Shown here one piece after another: positions 1,214-32,093 of a stretch of 64,000 nt of DNA. The position numbers and the translations under genes were made by a program. Source of the stretch: Endomicrobium sp. (GTDB lineage: Bacteria > Elusimicrobiota > Endomicrobiia > Endomicrobiales > Endomicrobiaceae); contig JAISLA010000004.1 of NCBI GenBank assembly GCA_031260705.1, positions 23,068 through 87,067 on the forward strand, given 5' to 3'. Position 1 is the first letter of the stretch. Each line of letters opens with the position of its first letter. The notes beneath the pieces were generated by a model. That model made no database searches. It was not told the DNA's origin and worked only from the letters and a program-made list of their open reading frames with translations.

Positions 1214-1639
1214 TATTGCGGATTTCCATGCAAGTCCCGGAGCTGCCGGGAGACCTTAAGGATTAAAGATACCATTAACTGTCTGCCGAAAGACAGCGTA
1301 ATTGCATTGTTCCCGTTCCGAACTTCCGTCGTATTTAGCAGTTTCAGGGCATCTGTCCGTAATTATTTTAAGCTGCTTAAAAAGACTATTGCCGCAGTCA
1401 AACGTATCGTTAATTTTTCTCCCGCATGGATATATATGTCTCTTTGACGGTGATTTTATAAAATTTCAGCAATTTTATAAAATGTCTGAATGGATTTTAA
1501 AAAATACTTCCGCATTGCTGAAAAAAATGTAAAACCAAACTGTATTATATGCCAAAGTTTTGATATTTCGCTCTTTGCAGACAAAACTTCCAGCGGGCTT
1601 TTTGTCAAATATGCAGATGTCGGCGATGCGACCATTATA

Positions 1640-1905
1640 TTGCTTTAAAAAATAATTTTCTTGCGGGCAACGCAATCCTGCATTTAGAAAACATAAAATG
1701 TAAAAACATTTTTCTTTTCGGAAGATGCGTCGGTTCTTTAGCGCTGGAATCAAATTTTTCAGATTGGTTTAGAGAAAAAAAAATATCGGCTGTAGATATG
1801 GAATCTTCAATAATTTTGTCTGTGGCAAAAGAAATAAAGAGAAAAACTGCCGCGTCAAGAAAAAAACTCGCAGATATGATTTTAAGGTTCTGCAATGAAA
1901 AATAA
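1640..1905 (+). pseudogene. Remnant of a nucleoside phosphorylase-like protein
   Basis: Open frame LKNNFLAGNAILHLENIKCKNIFLFGRCVGSLALES...VDMESSIILSVAKEIK resembles the phosphorylase superfamily end (VxMEsaa..vA); no intact N-terminus in the same frame. Confidence 0.35.
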
Positions 1906-3213
1906 TCCGGAAAATTTAACCGAGGACAAGGTTTTTAAAAATAGGTTTCCCAATTTCGGCATCAATAAGTCCAGAGAAATATTGCGACTGTTAAATGAAA
2001 TATCAAAAATTGAAAAGATAAAAATTGAGAGTCTTTTGAATGATTTTCACAGAAAAGACTATAAATCAGTCAAAGAGTTTTTTCTCAAACGTAAATACCC
2101 CGGGACTTTCGGCAAAATTTCCTTAAATTCTTTTTATCTGCCTAAATATGAAACTGATATTTTGTTAAAAGCTGATTTAAGATCCCGGAAATTTTATCCG
2201 AAAAATATTTACTACGAATCAGACGCTGGTATAACTCCGCTTTTTGAGAGAGTTAAAACATTATTTCCAGATTCAAAATGTGCCGAAAATAGAGTCGTTA
2301 AAAAGTTTCATAAAAAATAATTCTTTTACCGTACAAGACTATAATAACCGCAACAGCAATCTGTTTATTGTAAAGGAAAAATATGATTTTTTTAAAAAAT
2401 ATCCCTGTACTTCCGAAGTTGTAAACTGCGGGTATTCGGTTATGAATTTGGATGTGGGCTTGCATATACGACTGCAGCTATTGTCTTTTGCGGGGATATC
2501 AAAATTTAGCCGGTATCGTCATACCTTATAATATTGAAGATTATCTTTGCGATGAAAAAATTGAGAGTTCGATAAAAGAGTTTTTTAATTTTAAAAGAAT
2601 AGGAAGTGGCGAATTTACAGATTCATTAATTTTTGGCGATATTACAAGATTTTCAACAAAAATAATCGGCTACTTTAAAAAAAAGAATGATATCTTTTTT
2701 GAATTTAAGACAAAAAGCGCAAATATCAAAAATCTGCTTGAAAGCGGAGGAAAAGAAAATATTGTTGTTGCATGGAGCGCAAATTCAATAAGAATCAGCA
2801 AAGCCAACGAATTTAAAACTCCGCTAATTAGAGAAAGGCTCGAAGCAGCAAAAGAATGCGCTTTAAGCGGTTTCAGCACAGCTTTTCATTTTGATCCGAT
2901 AATTTATTATGACAACTGGAAACAGGGATATAGAGAAACAATAGATATGGTTTTTGACACCGTGCCAAATTACAGCATACAGCATAAAGTGGATAAGTCT
3001 GGGATCTTTGAGAATGCCGTCGGCACAGAAAACGGTTATTGAAAACCGTTTTCCCGGTACCGAAATACTAAACGGCGAACTTCTTTTAGAACAAGGCTCT
3101 AAATTGAAATGTATAAATACTTAAACCGGATTATTAAATCAAAAAAATCAAGAGCCGTAGTATATCTGTGCATGGAAGACAGTCAAGTGTGGAAAGCAGT
3201 GTTCGAAGCTTAA
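1895..3213 (+). pseudogene. SPL-family (spore photoproduct lyase-like) radical SAM protein, frameshifted
   Basis: Consecutive pieces in different frames (1895-2320, 2244-2531, 2452-3042, ~3000-3213); CIYDCSYC (CxxxCxxC), SIQHKVD, FPGTEILNGELL, AVVYLCMEDSQVWKAVFEA. Confidence 0.75.
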
Positions 3214-3259
3214 TTCTCAAAGAACTGAATTTTTCAAACTTATTACCGGAACAGTCGGT

Positions 3260-4363
3260 TTACCCGCGTTCCAATATTATCACTGCTATTTCGCTTGTGT
3301 TAAATAACCTCATCGGCGGTCCCCATAAGCGCGTTCCAGAAGTTATGTACATAACCGCATCGTTATTATAATATAAACCGTAATGGTATTTCATTAAATA
3401 TTTTCTCGCTATTTCAACAGGCGGAATCTGTCCCGCATGGGTATGTCCTGAAAGCTGTATTATTTTTATATCGTTATGTTTTGAAGCTTCGTCAAAAGAT
3501 TTCGGGTCATGGCTTAAAAAAATTACGGGATAATTTTTATTCACCTCGGCAAAAACTTTTGAAATTTTTTCAGGTTTGTCGCAGTCTATATAGTTGATAC
3601 CCGCCACATTAATCAGATTTTCAACCAAAACGCTTTCGTTCTGAAGGGCTTTAAATCCCAATTTTTCAAGCATTGAAAAATACGACTCAATGCCCGTATA
3701 ATATTCATGGTTTCCCGAGACGGCAAAAACGCCGTATTTTGCTTTTAATTTTTCAAAACCGTATTTAACATATTTGCCGTTTTTGTTAAGATCAGTATCC
3801 ATTACATCGCCCGTAATAACTATCATATCGGGTTTAAAAGACACAGCCTTATCAAAAATTTTGTTCATAATTTCAGACGAAGTAAACGAACTGATATGTA
3901 TGTCTGAAAGCTGTACTATTTTCAAGGAATCGACTGGGAGCTGCGGAACTTTTATTTTTATTTCTTTTACGTTAAATATAAACGCAAAATTCAACAAAGA
4001 CCAGACCGATGCTGCCATACTTAAAATTACAGCTGTCAGAGTTGAATAATATCTCAAATTTCTGACTTTAAACACTAAATTAACCGAATTCAATATATCG
4101 TTTGTGGCAAGAAAAGAGAACATTATTGCGCAGATTCCCATGCATATAAATCCAAATGTCCCTATTGCGGACATAAATGGAATTTTGTTATGGCCGGCGG
4201 CAAGCGAAAGAAGGCTTATAATTCCGAAAGTAGCAAATGTCACATATAAATAGGTACTGTAAGGTCTGCGGATATTTAAACCTGAATTCACGCGCCATGC
4301 AATATAAAGATATCCGGTTAAGTATATTGCTAGTATCGTTAAAATCGTTAAAATAGACATCAT
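3260..4363 (-). CDS. Membrane-anchored calcineurin-like metallophosphoesterase
   Basis: 367 aa; N-terminal TM helices then [32 protein letters not shown]. Confidence 0.9.
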
Positions 4364-17834: not shown

Positions 17835-18971
17835 ATGATTGATAACAGAATCAATATAAAGCATTCAATGATACGGTGGGCAATAGAACGTTCGGGAAAA
17901 GAGCAAGGTTTTTTTACGAAATCTTTCCCTAAACTTTCTCTTTGGGGAAAAAATGTTAAACCTACTTTAAAGCAGCTTCAAGATTTTTCTAAAAAAGCAA
18001 CGATTCCATTCGGTTATTTATTTTTGGAAGAACCGCTTGTTGAAACACTGCCGGTTCCGGATTATCGCACTGTTGATGATAAATATATAATGAGCAGTCC
18101 AAGCCCTGAATTGATTGAAACAATCTGCTTGATGCAGAGAAGACAGGATTGGCTGCGTTCTTATCGAATTGAAAATGGCAGCCAGTCGTTGGATTTTGCC
18201 GCTTCTTTTTCAAAATCAAATGATGTTGAAATTGCAAAAAATATAAGAAAAACATTGGGACTTGATTGCAGCTGGTCGGAAAATTGCAGGAACTGGAGCG
18301 TGGCTCTTGATGAGTTAAACAGAAAAATTGAAGATGTTGGAATTATGCTGATTTTTGATGGAATTGTTAAAAATAATACAAAAAGAAAACTGCTTGTAGA
18401 AGAATTCAGAGGATTTGTGTTATATGATGAATATGCTCCTTTGATATTTGTCAATAATTCGGATGCTAAATCAGCGCAGATGTTTACTATTGCCCACGAA
18501 CTTGCCCATTTATGGCTGAATGCAGGTGGGATATTTAATCTCGATAGAATGCAGCCCGGCAAAGGAGAAATCGAGATAAGATGCAGTAATATTGCAGCTG
18601 AATTTTTAGCTCCTGAATCTGAATTTCATAAATTATGGAAAGAGAAGCGATATAAGTTTGATAGCATAGCGCAGAGTTTTAAAGTAAGCACTATAGTTTG
18701 CGCAAGGCGGGCGCTGGACCTAGGTTTAATTTCTAAAGAAAAATTCTTTAGCTATTATGAAAATTCTACTAAAAGATTGAAAGATATAAAAAAATCAGAT
18801 AAGAAAGTAGATTTTTATAAAATGCAGCGTTATAGAATAGGCAGGAATTTGTCTGTTGCAATAAAGAACGCCCTTGCCGACGGATCTTTGCTTTACAGAG
18901 ATGCTTATAATTTAACAGGATTACGCGGTAAAACATTTGATAAATATGTTAAGGAGTTTGAGCCCTTATGA
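17835..18971 (+). CDS. ImmA/IrrE-family metallo-endopeptidase, probable antitoxin/regulator
   Basis: 378 aa; zinc motif TIAHELAHLWLNAGG, family-type sequence EEFRGFVLYDEYAPLIFVNNSDAKSAQMFTIAHELAHL. Confidence 0.85.
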   Translation: MIDNRINIKHSMIRWAIERSGKEQGFFTKSFPKLSLWGKNVKPTLKQLQDFSKKATIPFGYLFLEEPLVETLPVPDYRTVDDKYIMSSPSPELIETICLMQRRQDWLRSYRIENGSQSLDFAASFSKSNDVEIAKNIRKTLGLDCSWSENCRNWSVALDELNRKIEDVGIMLIFDGIVKNNTKRKLLVEEFRGFVLYDEYAPLIFVNNSDAKSAQMFTIAHELAHLWLNAGGIFNLDRMQPGKGEIEIRCSNIAAEFLAPESEFHKLWKEKRYKFDSIAQSFKVSTIVCARRALDLGLISKEKFFSYYENSTKRLKDIKKSDKKVDFYKMQRYRIGRNLSVAIKNALADGSLLYRDAYNLTGLRGKTFDKYVKEFEPL

Positions 18972-19426
18972 AATATTTATTAGATGCTAACGTGTTTATA
19001 GAATCTTGTAAAAATTACTATTCTTTTGATATAGTGCCTAAATTTTGGGAAACTATTACAGCTGAACATAAAAATGATAAATTATTCAGCTTGCAATCTG
19101 TGAGAGAGGAGATTCTCAAACAAGATGATGAATTAAGTGAATGGACAAAACCACTGCCGAAGTCATTTTTTTTATCAGAAACCAGCGATGTTATGAAAAA
19201 ATATGCAGAAATTCAGCAGCATATTCGTCAGTCAAATCAATATACAGAACAAGCAAAAGAAGAGTTTGCGCAATCAGATAATGCTGATCCGTATTTGATA
19301 GCGTTTGCTTTAACAAATGGGTATAAATTGGTTACAATGGAAAAATTTAATTCGAATAAAAAGAATAAAGTGCTAATCCCCAATATTTGCGAAACTTTCA
19401 AAGTTGAATGTATTAATAACATTTAA
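18968..19426 (+). CDS. DUF4411 family PIN-like protein, probable toxin
   Basis: 152 aa; MKYLLDANVFIESCKNYYSFDIVPKFWETI, DADPYLIAFALTNGYKLVTME; start overlaps the upstream stop. Confidence 0.85.
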   Translation: MKYLLDANVFIESCKNYYSFDIVPKFWETITAEHKNDKLFSLQSVREEILKQDDELSEWTKPLPKSFFLSETSDVMKKYAEIQQHIRQSNQYTEQAKEEFAQSDNADPYLIAFALTNGYKLVTMEKFNSNKKNKVLIPNICETFKVECINNI

Positions 19427-19478: not shown

Positions 19479-21071
19479 ATGAAAAAAATAGTTTCAGCGA
19501 TCTTTTCCCTTTTTTTGTTTATACCCGCAGTTTTTGCAGACGTGTCTGTAACTCCCTACGGAGCGGCTTCGACTGTTTCGGGCAGCTGTTTTCTTTTGGA
19601 GACGGAAAATTCAAAGTTCCTTATCGACTGCGGTCTTTTTATGCCTGAGGAAGGCAGCTCTGCTGGCGGTGAAACTGCAAAATTAAAAAATCTGCAGATT
19701 CAAAATGAGCTTATTGGAGCAGAAGCACTTTTTTTGACGCATGCGCATTTAGACCACAGTGGCAGAATTCCGCTTTTAATACACAGGGGTTTTAAAGGTA
19801 AAATTTATTCAACTCAAGCTACGAAAAAACTTGCTTTGACTCTTTTCAAAGAGAGAAATGGGTTTGATTTGATAGAACGAAAATGGTTCTGGTCGAAAAG
19901 TCAAAGAGAAAAGGCGCGCTACACTAACAATGGCAAAGTTGTAGTGCACTGGACCGACTGTAAAAAAAATATAAAATCCGCCGAGTATTCCGACACGGAG
20001 ATTTCTTTAAAAGACTTGGAAGAGAGAGAAACCGTTGAATTTTTATTGTGTAAAAACTGTTGTAAAGAAGAAACTGAAAAGATAGAAAGACAATTTGTTA
20101 CAGTTAAATATGATAGGGATATCAAAATTTCTGATAATTTTACGGTAAAACTTATAAATGCCGGACATGTGCCGGGCTCCGCCTGTTTTGTTTTTACAAT
20201 TGACAATAAGAAAGTTTTGTTTTCCGGAGATTTGGGAAGCGGCTATTCGAGGTTTAACGGCGAGTTTGATATTCCGGAAAAGGTCGATTTAATTTTTATG
20301 GAGGCGACTTATGCTGAATGCCGGCATAAAGTCGACATGGAACAATACGAACTTTTCAGAAATGATTTGAAAGAAGCTCTTGCAGCAGGAAAAACTGTCT
20401 GGATACCCGCTTTATCTTTTAACAGAACCCAGAAAGTTTTATATGAACTAAAGCTTATGCAGGATGACGGCAGCCTGTCAAAGAAAATACCGGTTTATTC
20501 TATTTCTCCCTGTGCAAATGCCATAACAGCTTTATATCAGAAAGAAGCCGCAAAAAGAAAAGAGAAGTCTGAAAAGTCGGTGATTAGCAGCTGCTGGTTT
20601 TTAGACGGCGTGTATAAGAAAGGTTCGGTTCTTCCTGAAAATGTAAAGCTGCAGACAATAGGAAATTACAGCTCTGACTCTAATATGATTTTAATTTCCT
20701 CCAGCGGTGATATGGATAAAGGAAGATCAGAGCATCTTGTGCCTAAAATGTCGGCAAGGAAAGATGTTTTTATAATGATAGTAAATTACGTGAGTCCCGA
20801 AAGCAATGCGGGACTTCTGCTTCAAAATAAAAAAACCCGTTCCGGAACGAAAAGTTTTGCAGAAATAAAAAAATATGATGTTTTTTCAGACCATGCTGAT
20901 TTTGAAATGCTGCAGAAATGGCTTTCAAATCAGGATAAAAATAATGTTAAAATATATATAATACATTCAAATGAGAAAAATATGCAGAATATGATAAAAC
21001 TCTTGAAAAGTAAAGGCTGTAAAAGAGTAAATGGCGCAAAAGCCGGAGAACCGGTAAAATTAGGATTGTAA
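19479..21071 (+). CDS. Beta-CASP metallo-beta-lactamase-fold protein (RNA-specificity type) with predicted signal peptide
   Basis: 530 aa; MKKIVSAIFSLFLFIPAVFADVS; LTHAHLDHSGRIPLL, NAGHVPGSACFVF, LFSGDLGSG, FMEATYAE, VFSDHADFEMLQKWL. Confidence 0.88.
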   Translation: MKKIVSAIFSLFLFIPAVFADVSVTPYGAASTVSGSCFLLETENSKFLIDCGLFMPEEGSSAGGETAKLKNLQIQNELIGAEALFLTHAHLDHSGRIPLLIHRGFKGKIYSTQATKKLALTLFKERNGFDLIERKWFWSKSQREKARYTNNGKVVVHWTDCKKNIKSAEYSDTEISLKDLEERETVEFLLCKNCCKEETEKIERQFVTVKYDRDIKISDNFTVKLINAGHVPGSACFVFTIDNKKVLFSGDLGSGYSRFNGEFDIPEKVDLIFMEATYAECRHKVDMEQYELFRNDLKEALAAGKTVWIPALSFNRTQKVLYELKLMQDDGSLSKKIPVYSISPCANAITALYQKEAAKRKEKSEKSVISSCWFLDGVYKKGSVLPENVKLQTIGNYSSDSNMILISSSGDMDKGRSEHLVPKMSARKDVFIMIVNYVSPESNAGLLLQNKKTRSGTKSFAEIKKYDVFSDHADFEMLQKWLSNQDKNNVKIYIIHSNEKNMQNMIKLLKSKGCKRVNGAKAGEPVKLGL

Positions 21072-21072
21072 T

Positions 21073-22062
21073 ATGTTTTCAAGAATGTCCGATAAAAACT
21101 TAATATACAGCATAGTAATAACGGCGTGTTTTATTTTTGCGTCTGCAGGAATATACATCGCCAGAAATTTAGGTTATTCCAAAGACGTCATCTTGCAGAA
21201 AGCAGGCGGATATTATGCGGACAAACGGTATTTTATGGCTGTAAGGTATTTTAGTAAAGCTGTAGATTTGAACGCTTCAAGCGCAGGATTGTACAGAAAT
21301 TACGGCATTTCTCTTTTGAGAGTGGGAAATTATAATTTGGCGGTAAAGTATTTTAAACTCGCTGTAGGTCTTGATCCCGTCGATTCTGATAACTACTATT
21401 ATATAGGAGATGCTTTGTATCGCGAGGCTTCCGCATCTAATAACAGAGAAAAATTTTTACAGGCAGTCCGCTATCTTGAAAAAGCCATAAATCTGGATCA
21501 GTATTCTGAGAAGTCATATCTGCTTATAGGATTGTGTTTCAGAAGCTGCGGACTTCAGGAAAATGCGAGGATGTTTTATAAAAAAGCTCTTTTGTCAAAA
21601 AATTTCAGCACCGCCGGTTTTTACAATTTAATCGGCAATACGTTTAGAGAAGAGGGCAGATACAAAGAGGCACTGTCGTATTATGAAAAGGCAAAAGAAA
21701 ACGATAATTCGTTTGTCGCCGCATACTGCAGTATCGGCGACATGTATTTGAAATTAAATAACCATGCAGAAGCGTTATTGAATTACCGCAAAGCAATAAA
21801 AATTGATGGATATTTTATAATTCCGCATATAAGTCTTGCTAATAGCTATTACGACAGGAACAATTTCTCTGAAGCGGCAGAGTGCTGTTTAAAAGCACTG
21901 AAAATAAATCCTGACAGCGACAAAGCAAATTATATTCTCGGTATGTCGTATAAAGCTTTGGGCAGAAAAAAGGAATGTGTTGAGTATTTAAAGAAAGCGG
22001 CGTTCTGCGGCAGCGATGATGCTGTCGGCGAACTTAGAAATATAGGGATTGATTTGAGATAA
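21073..22062 (+). CDS. TPR-repeat protein with N-terminal TM segment
   Basis: 329 aa; multiple TPRs (GNYNLAVKYFKLAVGLDPVDSDNYYYIGDALY, GRYKEALSYYEKAKENDNSFVAAYCSIGDMYLKLNNHAEALLNYRKAIKID). Confidence 0.85.
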   Translation: MFSRMSDKNLIYSIVITACFIFASAGIYIARNLGYSKDVILQKAGGYYADKRYFMAVRYFSKAVDLNASSAGLYRNYGISLLRVGNYNLAVKYFKLAVGLDPVDSDNYYYIGDALYREASASNNREKFLQAVRYLEKAINLDQYSEKSYLLIGLCFRSCGLQENARMFYKKALLSKNFSTAGFYNLIGNTFREEGRYKEALSYYEKAKENDNSFVAAYCSIGDMYLKLNNHAEALLNYRKAIKIDGYFIIPHISLANSYYDRNNFSEAAECCLKALKINPDSDKANYILGMSYKALGRKKECVEYLKKAAFCGSDDAVGELRNIGIDLR

Positions 22063-24462: not shown

Positions 24463-24723
24463 ATGAAAGAAAAAGTACAGAAAGTAGGAGTGGAAAAAGA
24501 ATCAGGTTATCTTTATTTTGTTGATAAGCAGGGCGATATTTCAAGATCTTTGATGGCAAGAGGCGGAAAGAAGGGCGGCAAAGCGTCAAAAGTAAAAAAA
24601 CTCGGCGTAGAGAAAGATGATAAGCAGGGCGATATTTCAAGATCGTCCATGAACAGAGGCGGAAAGGAAAACACAAAAAAGAAAGTTGTTAAAAAATCTG
24701 CGGGAAAAGGCAAAAAGAAATAG
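24463..24723 (+). CDS. Small basic protein with two imperfect internal repeats
   Basis: 86 aa; DKQGDISRSLMARGGKKGGK / DKQGDISRSSMNRGGKENTKK; preceded by aggaggttgca SD. Confidence 0.7.
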   Translation: MKEKVQKVGVEKESGYLYFVDKQGDISRSLMARGGKKGGKASKVKKLGVEKDDKQGDISRSSMNRGGKENTKKKVVKKSAGKGKKK

Positions 24724-30569: not shown

Positions 30570-32093
30570 ATGCTTTCGCTTATTTATTCCGCGGCTATTA
30601 ACGGCATAGAGGCGGATATAGTTGAAGTTGAAACGTATATTTCGTCCGGAATGCCTGTTTTTTCTATAGTGGGTCTTCCTGACGCTGCGGTTAAAGAGTC
30701 TCGCGACAGAGTTACAGCCGCAATGAAAAATTCAGGATTTGATTTTCCGTCAAGAAAAATCACCGTTAATTTAGCTCCCGCAGACATCAAAAAAGAGGGT
30801 GGTATTTTTGACTTGTCTATAGCTTTGGGGATACTTGCTGCAAACGGTAAAATAAAAAAAGAGAATTTACGTAGATTTTGTGCAGCAGGCGAGTTATCTT
30901 TAGACGGCAAAATAAGGAAAGTTAAAGGTGTTTTGCCTATATCTTTGAGTTTACAAAAAAACAAAATAAAAGATTTTATAGTACCTGTTGCAAATAGGCA
31001 GGAAGCAGCTGCTGCGGGAAAAGTGAATATATTTCCGTTTAAAACTCTTGCTGAGATTGTTAAATTTATTAACGGCGAGCTGAATTGCGAGCCTTATGTT
31101 TATAATGCGTATGATTTAGACGCTGACAGTGTTGATGTGGACTGTGATTTTGCCGACGTAAAAGGTCAGAAGAATGCAAGACGAGCCGCTGAAATTGCGG
31201 CCGCGGGAAGCCATAATATAATAATGTCGGGTCCTCCCGGTTCGGGAAAAACTATGATAGCAAAGCGTATTCCCGGCATACTTCCTCCGATGACTTTTGA
31301 CGAAGCTATCGAGACTACCAGAATATGGGCTGTATCGGGTCGTGCCTTTGTGGGTGGCTTGATAAAGCGGCGTACTTTCAGAAGTCCGCACCATACTTCT
31401 TCAGCCGTAGCTTTAGCGGGAGGCGGAACGTATCCCAGACCCGGAGAAGTAAGTCTTTCGCATAACGGAGTTTTGTTTTTAGATGAATTTGCAGAATTCA
31501 GAAGAGACGCCCTTGAAGTTTTGCGTCAGCCTTTGGAGGATAAAAAAATAACCGTTTCAAGGGCAAAGATCAGTTTTATTTTTCCGGCTTCTTTTATGCT
31601 TGTTGCGGCGATGAATCCCTGTCCGTGCGGAAATCTGGGACATAGGGAAAAAGAATGTGTTTGTAATCCTTATCAGATAAGGAAGTATCAGAGTAGAATT
31701 TCAGATCCTTTAATGGATAGAATTGATATTCACGTTGAAGTGCCGGCTTTAAAATTTTCTGAACTTTCGACTTTAAACGACGATTCTGAAAGTTCGGCAG
31801 GCATAAGAGAAAGAGTTGTAAAGGCTAGAGAAATTCAGAATGCGAGATTTCTAGGAAGTGGCATATATGCAAATGCTCAGATGCAGTCAAAAGAAATAAA
31901 AAAATATTGCGTTTTAGACGGCAATGCTTTTGAAATGCTTAAGACTACGGTTGAAAAATTAAATTTTTCGGCGAGATCTTACGACAAAATTTTGAAAGTT
32001 TCAAGAACAATTGCGGACTTGGACGGCAGTGATATAATTAAAACAAACCATATAGCGGAAGCCGTGCGGTATAGATTTTTTGACAGGGTATAA
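30570..32093 (+). CDS. comM: YifB/ComM family Mg-chelatase-like AAA ATPase
   Basis: 507 aa; GLPDAAVKESRDRV, MSGPPGSGKTMIAKRIPGILPP, PHHTSSAVALAGGG, NPCPCGNLGH, SDPLMDRIDIHVEV. Confidence 0.95.
   Translation: MLSLIYSAAINGIEADIVEVETYISSGMPVFSIVGLPDAAVKESRDRVTAAMKNSGFDFPSRKITVNLAPADIKKEGGIFDLSIALGILAANGKIKKENLRRFCAAGELSLDGKIRKVKGVLPISLSLQKNKIKDFIVPVANRQEAAAAGKVNIFPFKTLAEIVKFINGELNCEPYVYNAYDLDADSVDVDCDFADVKGQKNARRAAEIAAAGSHNIIMSGPPGSGKTMIAKRIPGILPPMTFDEAIETTRIWAVSGRAFVGGLIKRRTFRSPHHTSSAVALAGGGTYPRPGEVSLSHNGVLFLDEFAEFRRDALEVLRQPLEDKKITVSRAKISFIFPASFMLVAAMNPCPCGNLGHREKECVCNPYQIRKYQSRISDPLMDRIDIHVEVPALKFSELSTLNDDSESSAGIRERVVKAREIQNARFLGSGIYANAQMQSKEIKKYCVLDGNAFEMLKTTVEKLNFSARSYDKILKVSRTIADLDGSDIIKTNHIAEAVRYRFFDRV

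Follow-up and report, generated by a model that had tools for sequence, protein, structure and literature searches.

To our knowledge, beta-CASP nucleases act in the cytoplasm, the nucleus or organelles, on RNA or DNA, and we found no description of an exported or secreted beta-CASP family in the open-access literature. By sequence, the nearest solved relatives of the 530-aa Endomicrobiaceae protein described here are TTHA0252 and Cas14. TTHA0252, a ribonuclease of Thermus thermophilus (PDB 2dkf, 3iek and others), has the MBL, beta-CASP and RMMBL segments in the same order and the same motifs. However, it is 431 aa long with about 22% identity, its fold starts from residue 3 and so leaves no room for a signal peptide, and it lacks the HWxxxC/CxxC insertion found in our protein. 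Cas14 of type VII CRISPR (PDB 8yhd, NCBIfam NF045584) is also a beta-CASP nuclease and gives the best sequence match among solved proteins, but its fold starts from residue 6, again without a signal peptide. Membership in the described subfamilies was rejected: the protein scores 190 bits against the 800-bit NCBIfam cut-off for Cas14, 39.6 bits against the 400-bit NCBIfam subfamily cut-off for RNase J, and 145 bits against a cut-off of 580 for archaeal aCPSF1, whose KH domain is absent here (Pfam). No CRISPR context was seen for the gene.

The fold of EndA from Streptococcus pneumoniae is unrelated to that of beta-CASP nucleases. EndA is a possible functional analogue, as it degrades one strand during DNA uptake (PMC5031224, PMC6877725). 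In other bacteria, the competence nuclease is predicted to be the MBL domain at the C-terminus of ComEC (PMC5031224). This domain is likewise an MBL fold outside the cytoplasm, and it marks the functional slot proposed for the protein described here. Unlike our protein, it has no beta-CASP domain, sits in a membrane channel and belongs to a different MBL family.

The Artemis/SNM1 enzymes are beta-CASP nucleases that act on DNA, and Artemis likewise has an extra zinc site (PMC7458816). In Artemis this site lies in the beta-CASP domain, whereas the putative site of our protein lies between motifs 2 and 3. A His at motif C has been taken as a sign of RNA rather than DNA substrates (PMC3095777), and this is the residue found here (H496, in 95% of 44 family members), while SNM1 members have Val. 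A V-to-H change at motif C of SNM1A nevertheless left selectivity unchanged (PMC7458816). The substrate of the exported protein may be RNA, DNA or both.

Fold, catalytic motifs and insertion

The gene was found in a stretch of 64,000 nucleotides (hereafter the window) from a 0.99-Mb, 81%-complete assembly, where a single open reading frame fills the interval listed first in Table 1. The sequence-only reading had described its product as an MBL-fold protein with beta-CASP motifs, and this was confirmed. Pfam detects Lactamase_B (E 2.6e-14), Beta-Casp (6.8e-13) and RMMBL (4.5e-6), all above the curated cut-offs, and the full set of catalytic motifs (1-4 and A, B, C) is present. An AlphaFold2 model, built from a 43-row alignment of family sequences (mean pLDDT 89.7, pTM 0.90), has a TTHA0252-like fold, with TTHA0252 itself as the nearest structure in Foldseek (E 1e-32, TM-score 0.87 by target). 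The catalytic residues are at least 97% conserved among the 44 family members, H496 at 95%. Pairwise dN/dS between family members is about 0.13-0.28 in the mature part, which shows that the gene is under purifying selection. The predicted mature protein is basic (57.6 kDa, pI 8.9) and probably has nuclease activity.

The same reading had also pointed to an insertion after motif 2 containing LLCKNCCKEE. The insertion is real and conserved; C191 and C194 are kept, while C195 is not conserved across the 44-member alignment. These two residues form part of a longer pattern, HWx2-3C...CxxC, which is nearly invariant in the exported family, and each half of which is placed with high confidence at a strand-to-helix turn in the AlphaFold2 model. 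In one member (L065) the position of C161 is occupied by His, a swap that is typical for zinc ligands rather than disulfides. Near-invariance combined with this single Cys-to-His swap suggests that the insertion is a family-defining extra zinc site, a putative zinc knuckle.

Table 1. Features of the beta-CASP gene and its downstream neighbour, in window coordinates.
Feature	Positions	Strand	Basis and remarks
Whole gene, predicted exported MBL/beta-CASP nuclease, 530 aa + stop	19479..21071	+	ORF, Pfam, model, Foldseek
Predicted Sec signal peptide, residues 1-20, cleavage between A20 and D21	19479..19538	+	Sequence; in 44/44 members, absent from canonical relatives
Motif 1, D50 (LIDCG)	19626..19628	+	Alignment of 44 members, at least 97% conserved
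Motif 2, H88-A-H90-L-D92-H93, predicted zinc ligands	19740..19757	+	44-member alignment; aligned with TTHA0252 and Cas14
Family-specific insertion, about residues 125-210	19851..20108	+	Absent from canonical homologues; searched alone, no convincing Pfam or PDB match
HWxxC half of putative extra zinc site (H157, W158, C161)	19947..19961	+	At least 97% in 44 members; C161 to His in L065
CxxC half of putative extra zinc site (C191, C194), within LLCKNCC	20049..20060	+	At least 97% in 44 members
Motif 3, H230 (AGHVPGSA)	20166..20168	+	44-member alignment
Motif 4, D251 (FSGDLGS)	20229..20231	+	44-member alignment; D251N only in L015
Motif A, E275	20301..20303	+	44-member alignment
Beta-CASP domain, residues 317-443	20427..20807	+	Pfam PF10996; second search located it in the same place
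Motif B, H472 (FSDHAD)	20892..20894	+	44-member alignment; pairs with TTHA0252 H380
Motif C, H496 (IIHSNE), the His of RNA-type members	20964..20966	+	95% of 44 members; pairs with TTHA0252 H400; PMC3095777
Adjacent membrane-anchored TPR protein gene	21073..22062	+	Common neighbour in part of the family; functional link not implied

Export signal, distribution and gene neighbourhood

The N-terminus (MKKIVSAIFSLFLFIPAVFA, followed by DVS) has two Lys, a hydrophobic core and V-F-A at -3/-1, and the fold begins directly after it. This arrangement, a signal peptide immediately before the catalytic fold, had been noted from the sequence alone, and the family bears it out: all 44 members with readable starts have Lys/Arg and a hydrophobic core, and in nearly all of them the residue at -1, just before the fold, is small (mostly A, G or S). 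In contrast, the canonical beta-CASP relatives examined start straight in the fold, without a signal peptide. Set against these relatives, the retention of a signal-like N-terminus in 44/44 members is well beyond chance. In every pair for which both ratios could be computed, dN/dS was higher in the signal region than in the mature part. Judging from these features, an apparently active beta-CASP nuclease is very probably exported.

Among named relatives, Candidatus Endomicrobiellum agilis TA26 is the closest (74% identity over the protein); its genus holds endosymbionts of termite-gut flagellates (PMC11257099). The gene is the sole beta-CASP gene found in its 81%-complete assembly, in which no RNase J scored above cut-off. 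When an orthologue profile was searched against 341 Elusimicrobiota genomes, intact or contig-cut copies scored 380-950 bits, all of them in Endomicrobiaceae and spread over more than a dozen genera; the next scores, at about 105 bits, belonged to canonical enzymes from the rest of the phylum. The exported clade is thus restricted to Endomicrobiaceae among these genomes. Its members form one group on the tree with 100% support and a stem branch of 2.13 changes per column, and their carriers are gut bacteria of animals, including symbionts inside termite-gut protists. A single scan of genome contigs, non-exhaustive for other phyla, gave matches only in Endomicrobia. Plasmid and phage searches gave matches at only about 25-30% identity, and the signal peptide is absent from the four plasmid/phage matches and two viral contigs examined. 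Within Endomicrobiaceae we found no canonical cytosolic orthologue except a TTHA0252-type gene (L024, 1096-2750) in a small fragmented genome assigned to Endomicrobiellum (G035), which may be a contaminant contig or a horizontal acquisition.

In part of the family, argS lies upstream of the gene, and genes for a TPR protein, a small membrane protein and a DnaQ-like protein lie downstream; another part has the MreB, MreC and MreD genes downstream. A conserved operon was therefore rejected, and with such differing neighbour sets the gene context does not give the function. Nor was a conserved operon with competence genes found in the family flanks examined. The window itself carries comM at 30570-32090, some 9.5 kb beyond the beta-CASP gene on its downstream side. 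Another genus has this comM cluster member closer by, at about 3 kb or less downstream in three genomes (L080, L083, L085). Where many relatives have argS, the window has two overlapping genes (17835-19426), one ImmA/IrrE-like (Peptidase_M78) and the other of the PIN-type DUF4411 family, likely a toxin-antitoxin pair, and the close relatives L086 and L092 also have an ImmA/IrrE-like gene upstream. At 24463-24723 lies the gene for a short, internally repetitive protein rich in Lys (KQGDISRS...; cluster c7), which several relatives also encode close to the locus.

Association with competence genes

Endomicrobium species keep and express comEC, comEB, comF, comM and dprA, and the route of DNA across their outer membrane is unclear (PMC8809381). 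Of 42 Endomicrobiellum genomes, 24 have an intact beta-CASP gene and four (G012, G019, G028, G297) a broken one; the rest lack it. The presence of the gene is closely associated with that of intact comEC (phi 0.86), dprA (0.86) and comM (0.90), compared with -0.26 to 0.47 for seven variable control genes in the same genomes. These control genes were drawn from the window, and each search used three concatenated window proteins as its query. Presence and absence were scored by hand from the search tables; comEC, dprA and comM were the competence genes scored, with the comM of G300, which is split in frames, counted as present and the copies in G024 and G021 being partial.

Genome reduction is a real confounder of this co-loss, since the best threshold on estimated genome size alone gives a phi of 0.77 with presence of the beta-CASP gene. 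Among genomes with an estimated size of at least 1.0 Mb, the associations with comEC, dprA and comM had p values of 0.0008, 0.0008 and 0.0002, and of the controls only PHP fell below 0.05, in the opposite direction. We also followed the changes on a tree built from a conserved PLD-family gene, on which the beta-CASP gene changed state about nine times; the independent losses number about eight or nine. In five well-supported independent pairs, the competence genes agree with it in 3.5-3.8 and are never opposite, compared with only 0.7-1.4 for gcvPB, PHP and ilvD; the median p of this test is 0.125, as five pairs are too few to reach significance.

In G019, the beta-CASP gene, comEC, dprA and comM are all pseudogenes, and gcvPB, PHP, PLD, ilvD, RmuC and metF are intact. 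The decayed beta-CASP copies of G019, G028 and G012 (L022, L023 and L025) still adjoin argS and are snapshots of recent independent losses. The only full-length member with active-site changes (L015, D251N and H496D) comes from G007, a genome in which dprA and comM were not found. There are exceptions: G298 keeps comEC, dprA and comM without the beta-CASP gene, and no comEC was detected in G000 and G299, which do carry the beta-CASP gene (MAGs 64-81% complete).

The ComEC of Endomicrobiaceae has DUF4131 and Competence domains, and a domain search found no Lactamase_B domain in it; the MBL domain is likewise missing from the ComEC of H. pylori (PMC5031224). We rejected this absence as an Endomicrobiaceae-specific trait, because in most other sampled Elusimicrobiota families, too, ComEC has no MBL domain; one family (f17) retains it. 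As these other families have no exported beta-CASP enzyme, the enzyme is no general requirement for such a ComEC; that it substitutes for the MBL domain in Endomicrobiaceae is plausible but not required. Standalone exported or ComEC-type MBL proteins occur in many Elusimicrobiota families and are nearly absent from Endomicrobiaceae. Their export signals were checked in one locus (L026 of G045, 1369-3300), where two standalone ComEC-type MBL proteins, both with export signals, are encoded in tandem; they may be split-off competence nucleases.

Candidate roles of the predicted exported enzyme

We favour, with a probability of roughly 0.4, a periplasmic nuclease that acts on incoming nucleic acid and is probably tied to natural transformation. 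The Sec system would export the protein, the signal peptide would be removed, and the folded mature enzyme would be a dinuclear-zinc beta-CASP nuclease working in the periplasm, with the putative zinc knuckle beside its catalytic domain. Its most likely task would be the cutting or trimming of nucleic acid once this has passed the outer membrane, within or alongside transformation, so that the beta-CASP enzyme would supply the nuclease step attributed in many bacteria to the C-terminal MBL domain of ComEC. The stricter version, in which it is the dedicated DNA-processing nuclease of Endomicrobiaceae transformation and replaces the missing MBL domain of ComEC, is doubtful. The fold, the catalytic residues, the conserved signal peptide, selection, the restriction to one clade, the co-loss and the missing ComEC MBL domain are computed results; actual export, metal content, nuclease activity, an RNA or DNA substrate and the link to transformation are all properties that we infer. 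Of the roles first suggested from the sequence, DNA uptake has circumstantial support from the co-loss with comEC, dprA and comM, the ComEC without an MBL domain and the active-site changes in G007, and nutrient scavenging is possible. A role against host RNA finds no support: the gene is spread over the whole family, with genera treated in the literature as free-living among its carriers, and the genomes that have undergone the strongest reduction have lost it.

In the main rival account the protein is a nuclease of general function in the periplasm, most likely a ribonuclease, which breaks down environmental or leaked nucleic acid to salvage nucleotides or clean up the periplasm and has no mechanistic tie to transformation. 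This is a credible, if tentative, account: the motif C His is of the RNA type (PMC3095777), the nearest solved enzymes are ribonucleases, and the gene is present in larger-genome genera across Endomicrobiaceae with no operon link to competence genes. Against it stand the co-loss with three competence genes, which goes beyond that of the control genes, and the conserved neighbours in the flanks examined, among which no obvious nucleotide-salvage gene was recognised. It is improbable that an exported MBL hydrolase has instead been repurposed for a substrate other than nucleic acid, such as a phosphodiester or another envelope metabolite. The long stem of the clade and the new insertion could mean a new substrate, and a nucleic-acid substrate in the periplasm is only presumed, but strong constraint has kept motifs A, B and C and the whole beta-CASP/RMMBL architecture, and the mature protein is basic.

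Two further alternatives concern the N-terminus. It seems quite improbable that the hydrophobic segment stays uncleaved as an inner-membrane anchor, with the catalytic part in the periplasm and the same chemistry, given the small residue at -1 directly before the fold in nearly all members; one member (L016) does have a lipobox-like SAIVGC in place of AxA, so anchoring may matter in some lineages. A cytosolic enzyme with a misread start, which the weak Shine-Dalgarno sequence at the 19479 start in the window might suggest, is very improbable and already largely refuted. An in-frame stop lies two codons 5' of the ATG, which leaves an open frame of 532 aa, and no further Met occurs before M55, beyond motif 1, so no cytosolic start fits; the start type and signal peptide are also alike in all 44 members.

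The conserved signal peptides of this clade, with its putative added metal site, indicate that the beta-CASP fold has been placed in the periplasm. If the reading as a dedicated transformation nuclease is true, this would be the first exported beta-CASP family and also the first periplasmic enzyme of this sort to be recognised in any Gram-negative lineage. Because its loss goes with that of the DNA-uptake genes, the beta-CASP enzyme of Endomicrobiaceae is a candidate, open to testing, for the as yet unknown nuclease by which incoming DNA is prepared.
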